Assembly (NCBI GenBank): GCA_014860575.1
Contig: JACZJK010000026.1
Coordinates: 62,001 to 126,000 of the forward strand
DNA from: Bacteroidales bacterium
Lineage (GTDB): Bacteria; Bacteroidota; Bacteroidia; Bacteroidales; JAAYJT01
Length of the DNA: 64,000 nucleotides
Direction of reading: 5' to 3'
The notes under the pieces were generated by a model, which was not told where the DNA came from, did no database searches, and saw only the letters and a program-made list of their open reading frames with translations. Made by a program: the position numbers and the translations under genes. This document shows, one piece after another, positions 3,390 through 62,385 of this stretch. Positions within the stretch are counted from its first letter, which is position 1. Every line of letters begins with the position of its first letter.

Positions 3390-3392
3390 TTT

Positions 3393-3515
3393 AAAATTGA
3401 AAATTCGAGATTCAAAATTCAAAACCTCACTGGTATAACTTGCTATCAATTAATAAGTTAAATCTATGAATATTAAATCTTGAATTTGGAATCTTGAATC
3501 TATAATCTGGAATCA
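3393..3515 (+). repeat. Degenerate heptanucleotide tandem repeats between gldA and gldF
   Basis: Two blocks with a 7-nt period. Positions 3393-3420 hold four units of the type aaaattc. Positions 3460-3515 hold eight units of the type tgaatct or ggaatct. The first block starts three bases after the gldA stop codon. The unit resembles those in the arrays at 51180-51277 and 62295-62385. It does not encode a continuous peptide in the operon frame. Confidence 0.65.
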
Positions 3516-51160: not shown

Positions 51161-51179
51161 TTTTGGTAGTGTTTATGTG

Positions 51180-51277
51180 TTCAAGGTTCAAAGTTCAAGG
51201 TTCAAGGTTCGAGGTTCCGGGTTCAAGGATCAAGATTTAAGATTCAAAATTTTAGATTCAAGATTCGGGGTTTCAGG
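51180..51277. repeat. Heptanucleotide tandem array upstream of GH29
   Basis: Fourteen consecutive 7-nt units: ttcaagg, ttcaaag, ttcgagg, ttccggg, atcaaga, tttaaga and variants. It starts 20 bp upstream of the GH29 start codon. The same unit family recurs at 62295-62385. Confidence 0.78.
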
Positions 51278-51314: not shown

Positions 51315-51468
51315 AATATTGAGCCCACTCCAAAAAGTCACAAATTGCTGATTTTTATCGTTTTTGACCCCTGACCCCTAAAGGGGAAACGCTAAAAATC
51401 AGCACTTTGTGGAAGTCCCCTTTAGGGGATTTAGGGGCAGATATACTTTTCGGAGTGGACTCAATATT
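51315..51468. mobile_element. 154-bp nested palindrome, MITE-like
   Basis: The left arm 51315-51363 pairs with two right segments: 51387-51411 (2 mismatches in 25) and 51445-51468 (2 mismatches in 24). The ends form 24-bp terminal inverted repeats. The centre (51364-51386) and the 33-nt insert (51412-51444) carry the palindromes CCCCTAAAGGGG and CCCCTTTAGGGG in opposite orientation. The flanks GGATTTTG (51307-51314 and 51469-51476) may be an 8-bp target duplication, but they overlap local heptanucleotide repeats. Confidence 0.6.
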
Positions 51469-51500
51469 GGATTTTGGATTTTGGATTTTTCCGGGTTTCG

Positions 51501-54164
51501 TTAATCAACTACATTCAGTATAATCCGCTGCCGGATGTCTTTTGAGGAAGCGCCGATCATGATCCGGAATTCGCCCGGCTCCACAATTTTGTTCATTTTG
51601 GGGTCGTACATCGAGAGCATTTCGGGATCAATGGTGAATATCAGCGTTTTGCTTTCGCCGGCCTGCAGATGAATGCGCCGGAAAGCTTTCAGTTCCCGCA
51701 GCGGCCTGGCCACAGACGCCAGTTCATCGCGGAGGTAAAGTTGCACTACTTCGTCGCCGGCCACATTGCCCGTATTTCTCACTTTTACGCTTACCTGGCT
51801 TGCACCGTTTGTTTTTATCGTGCGAACCGAAAGCGCAATGTCAGAATACTCAAAGTTTGTATAGCTTAGTCCGAACCCAAAGGGGAAAAGCGGCTGGCCG
51901 GTGAGGTTCATATAATCGTCGCCGCGGCCGGTGGGTTTGTGGTTGTACACCAGCGGCAACTGCCCTTCAAAAACCGGGAAGGTGACGGGCAGGCGTCCGG
52001 CGGGATTGTAATCGCCAAACAGCACTTCAGCCATGGCTTGTCCGCCTGCTTCGCCCGGATACCAGGCCTGAACGATGGCGCCCGCTTTATCAATCCACTT
52101 GTTCATGGTAATAGCGCTTCCACCCACCAGCAACACCACCACCGGAGTGCCTGTTTCGGCGATTTTCAAAATGAGTTCTTCCTGCCGCCCGGGAAGATTC
52201 AGGTAAGCCCTGTCGAGGAATTCGCCTTCTTCAATGCCCACGGCCAGCACAGCTAACTCGCTGTGGCGGGCAAGCTCCATGGCTTTTTCAATTTCTGCCG
52301 ACTGCAAATCTTCAACGCCCATATTCCAGATCAGTCTGAACCACGCATTGCCCACAGGTTCGTAAAACTCGATCAGCAGATCGTATTCCCGGCCTTTTTC
52401 GAAAGTAAAATCCTTGAGAACCGCCTGCCTTGTGCGTTTTGTCCAGTTGTCGAGCAGCAGTTGCTTGTCGAGATACAAACGGTAGCCGTCGTTGCCGTCA
52501 ATGCCGATGTTGAAAGTTCCGCTCTCAGGGGCTGTCAGTTTTCCGCTCCAGCGCACCGACCAGAAATCATAGCTGAGTTTTTCGGGATCGGGGCCAAACA
52601 AAGTCCATTGAAACTGGATTTGCTTATCATTTCTTACAAAAACCGGTTGGCCCGAAAACGAAACATTGTCAAAATATTCCCCTTTCAGACCTGATTGCTG
52701 TTGGCCGTCCATTTCGCAGCTGAGGGTTTCTGTGGGAACCGTCAGATATTCAATGTTCTGGTGTTCGCAACCCAAAGCATATTTTACTTCAACTTCCGAA
52801 CCTGCCTTTTTCCGGATTCCTTCCAGGATGCTGATTTTTTGATTTCCCGGCCCGCTGTAACCGCCCAGCCGTGCTTCGGCGGCATCGGGTCCAATTACCG
52901 CGATTGATTTCACGTTTTGTGAAATGGGCAGCAATTGATCCTTATTTTTTAGCAGCACCATGGATTCCCTGGCTGTTTGCAGCGCAATTTCCCGGTGGTT
53001 TTGGTGGCCGTTGAGCTTGGCGGCTTCTTCCGGATCCACATAAGGGTTCTCAAACAAACCCAGTTCAAATTTCAGTTTTAAGACCCTTGCCACAGCTGCA
53101 TCAATCGTTTCCTGAGAAATGCTTCCATCATAGAAGGGCGGCGAGAACAGCGCCTGGTGGTTGTAATTGGTCTGGAAAATCACATCCAGGCCTTTTTCCA
53201 GGGATTTAACCGTGGCATCCGCATAATCGGCGGCGGTGAAATGCAGCACATTGGCGCCACCGGTTCCGCCGGCATCGGAGATCACAAAACCATCAAAACC
53301 CCATTCCTTTTTCAGCAATTGGTTGAGCAGCCAGTCGTTGGCCGTACATGGCGAGCCATCATAAGAATTATAGGAAGTCATCACCGAGCGCGACCCCCCG
53401 CGTTTAAAGCAAGCCTCGAAAGGCGCCAGGTGGATTTCACGCATCAGGCGTTCGTTCCAGTGTATTGGGTAGCTGTCGCGCCCGCCATCACCCACATTGG
53501 CCACAAAATGCTTGGGCGTGGTGATAATCCCCATTTTTTCAAACGCTGACACAAATGCAACGCCCATTTCGGAAGCGAGGTAAGGACATTCACCATAGGT
53601 TTCTTCGGTGCGGCCCCAGCGCACATCGGAGGCGATGTTCACCACTGGCGACAACACCTGTCTGATCCCCCGCGATTTGCATTCCACGGCAATGGCCCTG
53701 GCCACTTCGTGCATAAGTTCAGTGTTCCAGGTAGCAGCTAAACCAATGGCCTGCGGAAAAGCCGTAGCACCCGAACGCACCAGTCCGTGCAAGGCCTCGT
53801 CGAAAGGAATGATGGGAATGCCCAGGCGGGATTCTTCGATAAAGTAACGCTGGATTTCATTGATTTTAATCGCGGCTTCACGGGCAGACCAGCCTTCGGT
53901 ATATTCGAGCATTTGCCCGCTTGCATCAGCGCTCTGGCCCACCGTATTCACCTGGAATCCAAAAATTCCGGGTTTATATTGGTCTTTATCATCACCCAAA
54001 TCGCCTGGGATCATAAAGAGTTGCCAGAATTTTTCTTCGGGCGTCATACGCGAGAGCAGGTCTTTCACCCTTTCATCCACCGGCAGGTTTGGGTTTTTAT
54101 AGGCTTGTGCGCAAACAAACTGGATGGAAAGGGTTAAATGAAGGATAATAAGTAACTGTTTCAT
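51501..54164 (-). CDS. GH3 beta-glycosidase with PA14 domain
   Basis: An 887-residue secreted enzyme with a signal peptide (1-20). GH3 N-terminal barrel is about 25-375; KHFVANVGDG and the DGFVISDAGG block carry the nucleophile Asp297. The usual motif is SDW or SDY, so SDAGG is a variant. The C-terminal GH3 sandwich (about 400-760) is interrupted by a PA14 domain (about 490-635, GEYFDNVSFSGQPVF). A fibronectin-III-like tail covers about 800-887. EEGEFLDR holds the likely acid/base Glu. Typical specificity is beta-glucoside or beta-xyloside; in this glycan cluster other beta-linkages are possible. Cell location is probably periplasm or surface. Confidence 0.88.
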   Translation of the reverse strand: MKQLLIILHLTLSIQFVCAQAYKNPNLPVDERVKDLLSRMTPEEKFWQLFMIPGDLGDDKDQYKPGIFGFQVNTVGQSADASGQMLEYTEGWSAREAAIKINEIQRYFIEESRLGIPIIPFDEALHGLVRSGATAFPQAIGLAATWNTELMHEVARAIAVECKSRGIRQVLSPVVNIASDVRWGRTEETYGECPYLASEMGVAFVSAFEKMGIITTPKHFVANVGDGGRDSYPIHWNERLMREIHLAPFEACFKRGGSRSVMTSYNSYDGSPCTANDWLLNQLLKKEWGFDGFVISDAGGTGGANVLHFTAADYADATVKSLEKGLDVIFQTNYNHQALFSPPFYDGSISQETIDAAVARVLKLKFELGLFENPYVDPEEAAKLNGHQNHREIALQTARESMVLLKNKDQLLPISQNVKSIAVIGPDAAEARLGGYSGPGNQKISILEGIRKKAGSEVEVKYALGCEHQNIEYLTVPTETLSCEMDGQQQSGLKGEYFDNVSFSGQPVFVRNDKQIQFQWTLFGPDPEKLSYDFWSVRWSGKLTAPESGTFNIGIDGNDGYRLYLDKQLLLDNWTKRTRQAVLKDFTFEKGREYDLLIEFYEPVGNAWFRLIWNMGVEDLQSAEIEKAMELARHSELAVLAVGIEEGEFLDRAYLNLPGRQEELILKIAETGTPVVVLLVGGSAITMNKWIDKAGAIVQAWYPGEAGGQAMAEVLFGDYNPAGRLPVTFPVFEGQLPLVYNHKPTGRGDDYMNLTGQPLFPFGFGLSYTNFEYSDIALSVRTIKTNGASQVSVKVRNTGNVAGDEVVQLYLRDELASVARPLRELKAFRRIHLQAGESKTLIFTIDPEMLSMYDPKMNKIVEPGEFRIMIGASSKDIRQRIILNVVD

Positions 54165-60653: not shown

Positions 60654-62282
60654 CTACGGTGTCCACCAAATCTTCACCCCCGTCGCATCTCCTCCCTGGT
60701 TGGCAATGGCTTCGGACCAGTTTGCTGAATTGCTTTCAGCTTCTGATGGCGGGTAAGGCAATCGGTAATGGCTGATTGGTTCTCCTTCGAAAGGGGTTAA
60801 GCGGGTGCGGCGTGACAGTGCATACGCCTCAGCCGGTTGCCTGAAAGCGTCGAGCCATCGCTGGGTATAAATAAACCTGAGTTTTTCTTCATCGGATGTG
60901 GTGTTCCAGAAACCGAAACGGTTGAGGACTGTTGCCGCGCCCAGGTTTCCCGGAATGCTGATCATGTCGGGAAATCTTAATCCTGATAAAGGCAACTTCG
61001 AATTTTCAGCCACTTCCATCCACCATGAAACGGACGAGTTAATGCCGTTGTAAAACTCTATTTCCCCTTGTGGTTTATCCATCGCAACAACAATTCCACG
61101 GAAGTATGCTTCAGCCATAATGAAATGAGTTTCAGCCCCGGTGTATAAAATAATGGGCATGAAGTCTTCATCGCGGATCAGGAAATAATTGAATGGGGAA
61201 TAAATGCAGGCTTCGCCTTTGATTAGAAAGGCTCCGTCCTGATCGCGGTGCGAGTCGTAGGGGATTCCGCCTGAAGAAGGTGTGCCGACATCGGGAATCT
61301 GTGGATAGGCAATCCACCGGTTGGTATTGTCGGTTTCAAAGAAAATATACGCTCTTGGGTCGAAAATACTACTGCCATCTATATTGTTGTCAGCCGAAAG
61401 TTGTTGCCAAATGTTCGAACCCATTCTCAGATTATTGTGTTCGCGAAATGACCAGTTAAGGCTCTCATTCTTAAAGCCAGTTGCAGAAGGCCATAAACAT
61501 GCGCTTTCAAGCACAGGTGTAATAAAGTCATAGCCCAGGAAAACCGGTTTGTTGTTTTCAATAATTTCTTTGATTATTGCGCCTGCAATTTCTGGCTCTT
61601 TTTCCGACATACGCATCGCATGCCTCAACCTGAGCGAGTTTGTGAGTTTTTTCCACATGAGCATATCGCCTTTAAAAAGCAGATCAAAGCTTTTGAAAGT
61701 GGTAAACGGATGTTCTACGGCAGCCGTTTCATCAATGTTCTCATCGGCCCATTTTAAGTCTTCCAGCAAGCCCAGGTAAATGTCGTGTTGACTGTCGTAC
61801 TTAGGTCGCAACAGACTGAGATCATGAAAACCGTATCCGGCTTCGCTGAATGGGATGTCGCCAAAAAAATCGGTGACTTTAAAAGTCTTAATCGCCAGCA
61901 AAATCTTCAGCACGGCTTTCATATTGATCACCGAAGGCGTTTCCTCATATTTTTCGAATCGTTTTTCAAGCTCCCTGATTTCCGGCAGTACCCGGTAGTA
62001 ATTGCTCCAGATGTCTTCAGTACCAAGCGTGAAATTGCCCCAGGCTTCCCGTGTGAGTGCAGCAAGTTGCGTTTGTTTATAAAGGATTTCATTGTTGATG
62101 TAAAACTGCTCGTTCCCTCCGGGTTGCACTGATTTGATCACGTTGTTGAACAAAGCGCCATCGCTTGCCGTGGTAAATCCATGCGGGTTGGTATTGATTT
62201 CCTCAAAATCTTTGGTGCACGAACCCAGCAGCATAGTTGCAAGCAGAAATGCTATCAGAGGAAGGTGTTTTGTTTTATTCAT
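60654..62282 (-). CDS. SusD/RagB-family glycan-binding lipoprotein
   Basis: A 542-residue lipoprotein (LLGSC lipobox at about 18-22; then TKDFEEINTNPHG). It fits the SusD-like_2 / RagB nutrient-binding family: LAALTREAWGNFTLGTEDIW, then the FLIRDEDFMPIILYTGAETHFIMAEAYFRG region and FIYTQRWLDAFRQPAEAY. It would bind glycan at the cell surface and pair with the adjacent SusC channel upstream. The spacer to SusC (314 bp) is filled with tandem arrays. Confidence 0.92.
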   Translation of the reverse strand: MNKTKHLPLIAFLLATMLLGSCTKDFEEINTNPHGFTTASDGALFNNVIKSVQPGGNEQFYINNEILYKQTQLAALTREAWGNFTLGTEDIWSNYYRVLPEIRELEKRFEKYEETPSVINMKAVLKILLAIKTFKVTDFFGDIPFSEAGYGFHDLSLLRPKYDSQHDIYLGLLEDLKWADENIDETAAVEHPFTTFKSFDLLFKGDMLMWKKLTNSLRLRHAMRMSEKEPEIAGAIIKEIIENNKPVFLGYDFITPVLESACLWPSATGFKNESLNWSFREHNNLRMGSNIWQQLSADNNIDGSSIFDPRAYIFFETDNTNRWIAYPQIPDVGTPSSGGIPYDSHRDQDGAFLIKGEACIYSPFNYFLIRDEDFMPIILYTGAETHFIMAEAYFRGIVVAMDKPQGEIEFYNGINSSVSWWMEVAENSKLPLSGLRFPDMISIPGNLGAATVLNRFGFWNTTSDEEKLRFIYTQRWLDAFRQPAEAYALSRRTRLTPFEGEPISHYRLPYPPSEAESNSANWSEAIANQGGDATGVKIWWTP

Positions 62283-62294
62283 AGTTTTTAATAG

Positions 62295-62385
62295 TTCGAT
62301 GTTCGGGGTTCAGTCTTCAAAGTTCAAAGTTCAAGGTTCAAAGCCCCAAGCCCTAAGCTCCAAGTTCCAAGCCCCAAGCCCCAAG
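62295..62385. repeat. Heptanucleotide tandem array upstream of susD
   Basis: Thirteen 7-nt units (ttcgatg, ttcgggg, ttcagtc, ttcaaag, ttcaagg, ccccaag, ccctaag, ctccaag, ttccaag). It starts 12 bp upstream of the susD start codon. Same unit family as 51180-51277. Confidence 0.78.

Follow-up and report, generated by a model that had tools for sequence, protein, structure and literature searches.

Between two genes on the minus strand of a Bacteroidales genome lies a strongly folded palindrome that is probably a 142-bp non-autonomous DNA transposon, a miniature inverted-repeat transposable element (MITE), with the ends and the target of an IS1182-like DDE transposase and with hairpin tips that are replaced by hairpin switching or conversion. 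We put the probability of this reading at about 0.8. The stretch of DNA analyzed, hereafter the window, is 64,000 nucleotides long and spans positions 62,001 to 126,000 of contig JACZJK010000026.1 (GenBank assembly GCA_014860575.1); the palindrome occupies 51315–51468 of it. That it resembles a MITE had been suggested by a model-made first-pass annotation, and this is borne out by many copies, by target duplications and by ends common to transposase-bearing elements.

A search of the element's own genome (4.4 Mb in 66 contigs) returned 111 matching pieces. After orientation and removal of duplicates, among them L035_3281 (L, C and G numbers are our handles for loci, contigs and genomes), 40 copies of the window type could be aligned. 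They are mostly 142 bp long, lie on both strands, lack coding capacity and, as had been claimed, contain no transposase; the element is hence not single-copy. None of the 30 well-paired copies is inside an open reading frame (ORF) of at least 100 amino acids, as called by a simple caller. The 18-bp end GAGTCCACTCCGAAAAGT pairs with its inverse 45 times, or 41 times once four duplicate pairings are removed (L012 1427, L020 1489, L022 1489 and L035 1589). Exact duplications flank 22 of these 41 terminal inverted repeat (TIR) pairs, 21 of them 6 bp long and one 7 bp; in a control that paired the flanks of different copies, a 6-bp match occurred in 2.7% of 1980 cases. The consensus of the duplications over the copies is AANNTT, and in the window the duplication is AATATT. 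The 8-bp duplication GGATTTTG proposed in the first-pass annotation is present on both sides, but it reflects the periodicity of the surrounding array and is ruled out as a duplication, AATATT having been counted into the outer arms. Duplications of 2 or 4 bp, with ends TTGAG or TGAG, are ruled out by the copy L004 (AAAGAA) and by the pair statistics, which fix the length at 6 bp. Some contigs of the genome (G000) end at or near copies of the MITE, namely C46 and C55 at their ends and C63 at its start, and C46 and C63 may adjoin because both break there.

The features at the window locus are as follows.

51321–51462, plus strand: the MITE proper, 142 bp, with boundaries set by the 6-bp duplication common to the copies
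51315–51320, plus strand: left target duplication, AATATT
51463–51468, plus strand: right target duplication, AATATT
51321–51338, plus strand: left TIR, GAGCCCACTCCAAAAAGT, with 2 mismatches to the consensus GAGTCCACTCCGAAAAGT
51445–51462, minus strand: right TIR, matching the consensus exactly on that strand
51339–51363, plus strand: left arm of the inner stem, from arm pairing and covariation
51387–51411, plus strand: right arm of the inner stem, from arm pairing and covariation
51375–51386, plus strand: tip palindrome CCCCTAAAGGGG, whose place other palindromes take in other copies
51412–51444, plus strand: one-sided insert of 33 nt with a second palindrome, CCCCTTTAGGGG (51417–51428)
51179–51276, plus strand: period-7 array, GTTCAAG-like, adjoining the insertion site
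51469–51489, plus strand: period-7 run resumed (GGATTTT) to the right of the MITE

The arms pair as first described, 51315–51338 with 51445–51468 (24 nt, 92%) and 51339–51363 with 51387–51411 (25 nt, 92%), and the right arm is indeed split by an insert that holds CCCCTTTAGGGG, the counterpart of the loop CCCCTAAAGGGG. The unit is not the 154-bp palindrome that had been described but the 142-bp element with AATATT added on each side; AATATT extends the outer arms because it is itself palindromic. The fold is far beyond chance. Its energy is −42.2 kcal/mol as DNA (z −8.05) and −75.6 as minus-strand RNA (z −9.68), and in each case it was matched by none of 200 shuffles. The spacer that holds the MITE separates a GH3-type from a GH29-type gene, named by reading their ORFs without a family call. 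Both are on the minus strand, and the label of convergent that the simple ORF caller gives to this copy is owed to an antisense ORF. Elsewhere in the same genome, the module of the 33-nt insert forms a 36-bp tandem unit at 785–2671 of L054 (G000:C49:12500-16452) and is also found there within larger repeats of 117, 155 and 306 bp, with 14 copies of CCCCTAAAGGGG altogether.

The choice of target accounts for the setting. When the flanks are joined with one duplication removed, TT appears at positions 1–2, 8–9 and 15–16 and AA at 4–5 and 11–12, so the target consensus, TTnAAnnTTnAA, itself has a period of 7 bp. The target tests were limited to pairs whose TIRs total no more than 6 mismatches; there are 30 of these, and 29 have enough flank. 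Of those, 20 exceed the period-7 threshold, compared with 8.5% of intergenic sequence in the window and 12.2% of that in the other loci (Mann–Whitney p ~1e-9). Identity at a lag of 7 across the junction is highest for a removal of exactly 6 bp, at 0.552 versus 0.40 for 5 bp and 0.38 for 7 bp, and in the window the deletion of one AATATT re-forms an in-phase period-7 run over the junction. Since the target has period 7, the insertions are enriched in such sequence and the phase is restored at 6 bp, the MITE inserts preferentially into the heptamer array, and the presence of GGATTTTG on both sides is therefore part of that array. The observation that the spacer is rich in heptanucleotide repeats thus stands, with period-7 arrays flanking the MITE, but the array does not fully explain the flanks, as a distinct 6-bp duplication is found at the ends of the element. 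We set aside the idea that the array was made by repeated excision; a 6-bp duplication gives no period of 7, and the phase is restored on removing one copy. Clusters of the TTnAAnnTTnAA target without an element are also found elsewhere in the window, at 3390–3484 and 62316–62341.

Insertion sequences with the same terminal repeats, a search for which had been advised, are found only in other genomes of Bacteroidota, where such ends flank the transposase genes of L089 through L093 and the decayed one of L095. In a scan of the genome contigs, L089 is an 1829-bp element with an intact transposase of 561 amino acids. Its left end is exactly GAGTCCACTCCGAAAAGT and its right end has 3 mismatches; the element, bordered by ATCATT left and right, lies within an 8-bp array. 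Both ends are also recognizable in L090, L091, L092 and L093, with 5 mismatches at the left end of L091 and 4 at that of L093; L094 is interrupted by a contig end. In G084, of the same order, matching ends at a distance of 1.3 kb enclose a transposase that has decayed (L075, L095). When 198 genomes of the order were searched, relatives at E 1e-20 or better turned up in five. The best NCBIfam model is NF033551, IS1182, for all four proteins tested, and all four have the DUF772 N-terminal domain (PF05598) above the gathering score. Models of the DDE domain score near their cut-offs in three of the transposases and find nothing in L091. Against solved structures, the L089 transposase gave just four weak matches of ~37 residues to designed WRAP proteins, which are uninformative.

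The ends and the interior of the MITE also occur apart from one another. Matching ends surround unrelated interiors in the own genome at L043, L049 and the 45-bp L045; the interior of L043 and L049 is one that we take to be a common HPERSEGS-type repeat. The same is true elsewhere of L063 (G077), L065 (G002, of the same genus) and L068 (G085), each with a 6-bp duplication by eye. G015 and G042 have the interior of the MITE, including the one-sided insert, but with diverged, GAGTGCAGTCTAAAAAGCC-like ends. Some match at E 0.001 was found in 21 of 99 genomes searched, in most cases limited to the ends or the CCCCTAAAGGGG module. Two further arrangements were seen. In other genomes of the order, short elements are built from a CCCCTAAATCCCCTAAAGGGGACTT module (L062, L084 (G004), L064, L083 (G039)); their ends are inverted or mirrored and not IS1182-like. 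In L086 (G062:C61:4569-7601), one end is present twice in direct orientation at a spacing of 466 bp, with an apparent ORF start between the two copies.

Within the family, the tips are exchanged between near-identical copies, and an unrelated cassette of ~35 bp, M2, is found repeatedly at a single position in stems that form no common group. In six of the 40 own copies the tip is a TCCGCCGCGGCGGA-like GC palindrome (that of L029 being counted as this type despite its degeneracy), and the remainder carry CCCCTAAAGGGG or decayed forms. In G015 the tip is TCCGCCTAAGGCGGA or its TTA variant in seven of eight copies, and in G042 the second hairpin is replaced by TCCCGAAAGCTTTCGGGA in two of four usable copies. 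L099 and L100 have stems identical in 118 of 119 columns and different tip palindromes; the stems of L018 and L001 differ at 2 of 119. On a tree of the stems, made with the tip and cassette columns removed and L111 through L114 excluded, the six GC-tip copies require six changes, which is no better than shuffled labels, and the starred branches by themselves force at least two. The 10 copies with M2 require nine. The GC palindrome, allowing one mismatch, was followed at 20 fetched sites, many of which are HPERSEGS-type tips, while two are in another hairpin and two come after truncated tRNA halves. In the latter (L122, G000:C37:22615-22788; L125, G000:C52:58509-58682), the 5′ half of a tRNA is joined directly to TCCGCCGCGGCGGA, and just downstream is an apparent second tRNA that shares this 5′ half; run on the short slices, ARAGORN detected no tRNA. 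Swappable tips, the GC palindrome among them, are also found in a second family of repeats, of which several members have GAGGCTGTCTCAAAA-like ends (L117–L121, L124, L127–L129, L131, L132, L135 and L136).

The stems themselves change in a paired fashion. In the inner stem of the own-genome copies, 11 of 23 pairs show double changes, in 22 cells, where shuffling gives a mean of 5.95 and reached that value in none of 500 trials. The cells count copies rather than events, and 8 of the 22 are one identical change from T-A to C-G at one pair. Watson–Crick pairs make up 22 of the 26 doubly changed inner cells. The outer stem, made of the transposase ends, has 12 doubly changed cells versus a shuffle mean of 8.9, a level reached in 66 of 500.

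We suggest the following course of events. An IS1182-like DDE transposase would recognize the GAGTCCACTCCGAAAAGT ends and insert the MITE with a 6-bp duplication at AANNTT; insertions gather in period-7 arrays because the favored target TTnAAnnTTnAA is built into them. The transposase presumably acts in trans and would have done so in this lineage, where none is found now. Once in place, the palindrome may extrude from the DNA as a hairpin or cruciform. We infer from the inner-stem covariation that template switching during replication, inside the extruded hairpin, keeps the inner arms matched, and the tip palindrome would be replaced by switching to other hairpins of the genome or by conversion from them.

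Several observations weigh against this account. Nineteen of the 41 TIR pairs have no exact duplication; some of these are weak, with many mismatches, and some belong to decayed copies. An exact 6-bp duplication is found in just one of the six transposase-bearing copies, L089, where 14 bp fits too; L090, L091, L093 and L095 have none, and L092 stops at a contig edge. The NF033551 scores are 81.1–114.6 bits, under the cut-off of 270, and it is because the best model is IS1182 yet the score falls short that we say IS1182-like. At 119 columns the stem tree is short, and of its 49 inner branches 25 are weak. No clean empty site was found in relatives; in G001, of the same genus, the order of the neighboring genes differs, with a GH29-like gene read directly after the homolog of the window's 741-amino-acid gene and no GH3-like match in that locus. 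Finally, no IS1182-like transposase was found in the own genome, which is 95% complete in 66 contigs (a control was detected in 6 of 14 genomes in one search). The movement in trans foreseen in the first-pass annotation thus appears supported in principle by the matching ends elsewhere, but it lacks a matching transposase at home. The copies may be what remains of an element that has been lost; alternatively, the gene may lie in the missing part of the assembly.

Of the other explanations, gene conversion between MITE copies alone fares best, with somewhat less than an even chance. It would have a few ancestral variants of tip and cassette shuffled by homologous recombination, with no process specific to hairpins. 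All 10 matches to M2 in the own genome are inside MITE copies at a constant position, nine of them identical over 24 nt, which is as conversion would have it, and the copies have homologous flanks able to pair. In 198 genomes of the order, M2 was otherwise found in two (G041 and G154), there in other settings. Conversion among copies sits poorly with the GC tip in unrelated hairpins of the same genome and with replacement palindromes, at the tip or second hairpin, that differ between genomes, and it does not lead one to expect covariation confined to the inner stem. We consider it unlikely that the tips (CCCCTAAAGGGG, TCCGCCGCGGCGGA, TCCGCCTAAGGCGGA and TCCCGAAAGCTTTCGGGA; 12–18 bp) and M2 are mobile micro-elements that replace or enter hairpin tips and are carried by the MITEs, perhaps by way of an IS1272-type structure-guided transposase.

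A function in RNA, as a terminator or regulator between two co-oriented genes, is improbable. It would attribute the covariation to selection on RNA pairing, and the strong fold, the covariation itself and the intergenic position of all 30 well-paired copies are in its favor. Selection on RNA should favor G-U, yet G-T, with 18 of the single changes in the inner stem, shows no excess over A-C, with 16; we favor correction at the level of DNA, which need not prefer G-T. The window has no Rfam match at gathering thresholds, the element has no terminator-like site (the single match of the scan is outside it, at 51523–51536), and the copies are found between neighboring genes in tandem, divergent and convergent settings alike.

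A REP or REPIN sequence moved by a RAYT enzyme (HUH, IS200/IS605-like) would likewise be short, palindromic, intergenic and present in many copies, but the 6-bp target duplications and the 18-bp ends in common with DDE-type transposases make this very improbable; HUH elements are not known to make such duplications. An artifact of binning or of repeat collapse in the metagenome assembly has next to no credibility: L003, L007 and L013 are at or near contig ends, and L003 and L013 are possibly one copy at a contig break, but most of the copies lie inside contigs, where they have distinct flanks and duplications of their own, which refutes it for the family as a whole, and a like architecture exists in G015 and G042.

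No published report of this element, its target or the exchange of its tips was found in the literature searched, which excludes most subscription papers. What is new is the period-7 target and the exchangeable tips; the MITE type itself is already known. The target gives a mechanical reason for palindromic repeats and heptanucleotide arrays to occur together in this genome. The many near-identical hairpins in one genome amount to a natural experiment in which one can see directly how tips are replaced and how one arm is corrected from the other, with a bearing on how stems stay paired and on the source of short mosaic palindromes in Bacteroidota.

The SDR elements of cyanobacteria are reportedly tiny repeat modules that sit at exact positions within other repeats. 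Very small modules in repeats are also what we see, only here the modules are the hairpin tips of a DDE-type MITE, and the likeness is one of description. The source for the SDR elements is Elhai 2008, as cited in PMC4390886. Template-switch mutation of hairpins, also the subject of PMC7202029, would give stems paired, compensatory changes with no need of selection, an argument made for RNA genes in PMC8794818; by itself it leaves the import of an unrelated palindrome unexplained. Two MITEs of Bacteroidota, the IS982-derived MITECca01 of Cardinium (PMC9769881) and BrickBuilt of Porphyromonas, which has IS5-like ends and a minisatellite inside (PMC4596501), are likewise short and coding-free with the ends of a parental insertion sequence. 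They belong to other families, and the accessible portions of their descriptions mention no tip exchange; in our case, the tandem array is outside the element and serves as its target. From the IS1182 family, with which it shares 18-bp ends matching elements whose transposases hit NF033551 best and PF05598 above cut-off, the MITE differs in having no transposase, and the related transposases score 81–115 bits versus the family cut-off of 270. The nearest annotated transposase family is that of IS1272 and TnSha1, for which the excerpts of PMC5678879 and PMC4923244 describe a stem-loop replacement in which a hairpin target is deleted and no target duplication is made. Hairpins replace hairpins in both systems, and a structure-guided origin of the tip cassettes is thinkable. 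As far as those excerpts go, our MITE differs from IS1272 in its 6-bp duplication at AANNTT and in that the part replaced is a short tip inside the MITE.
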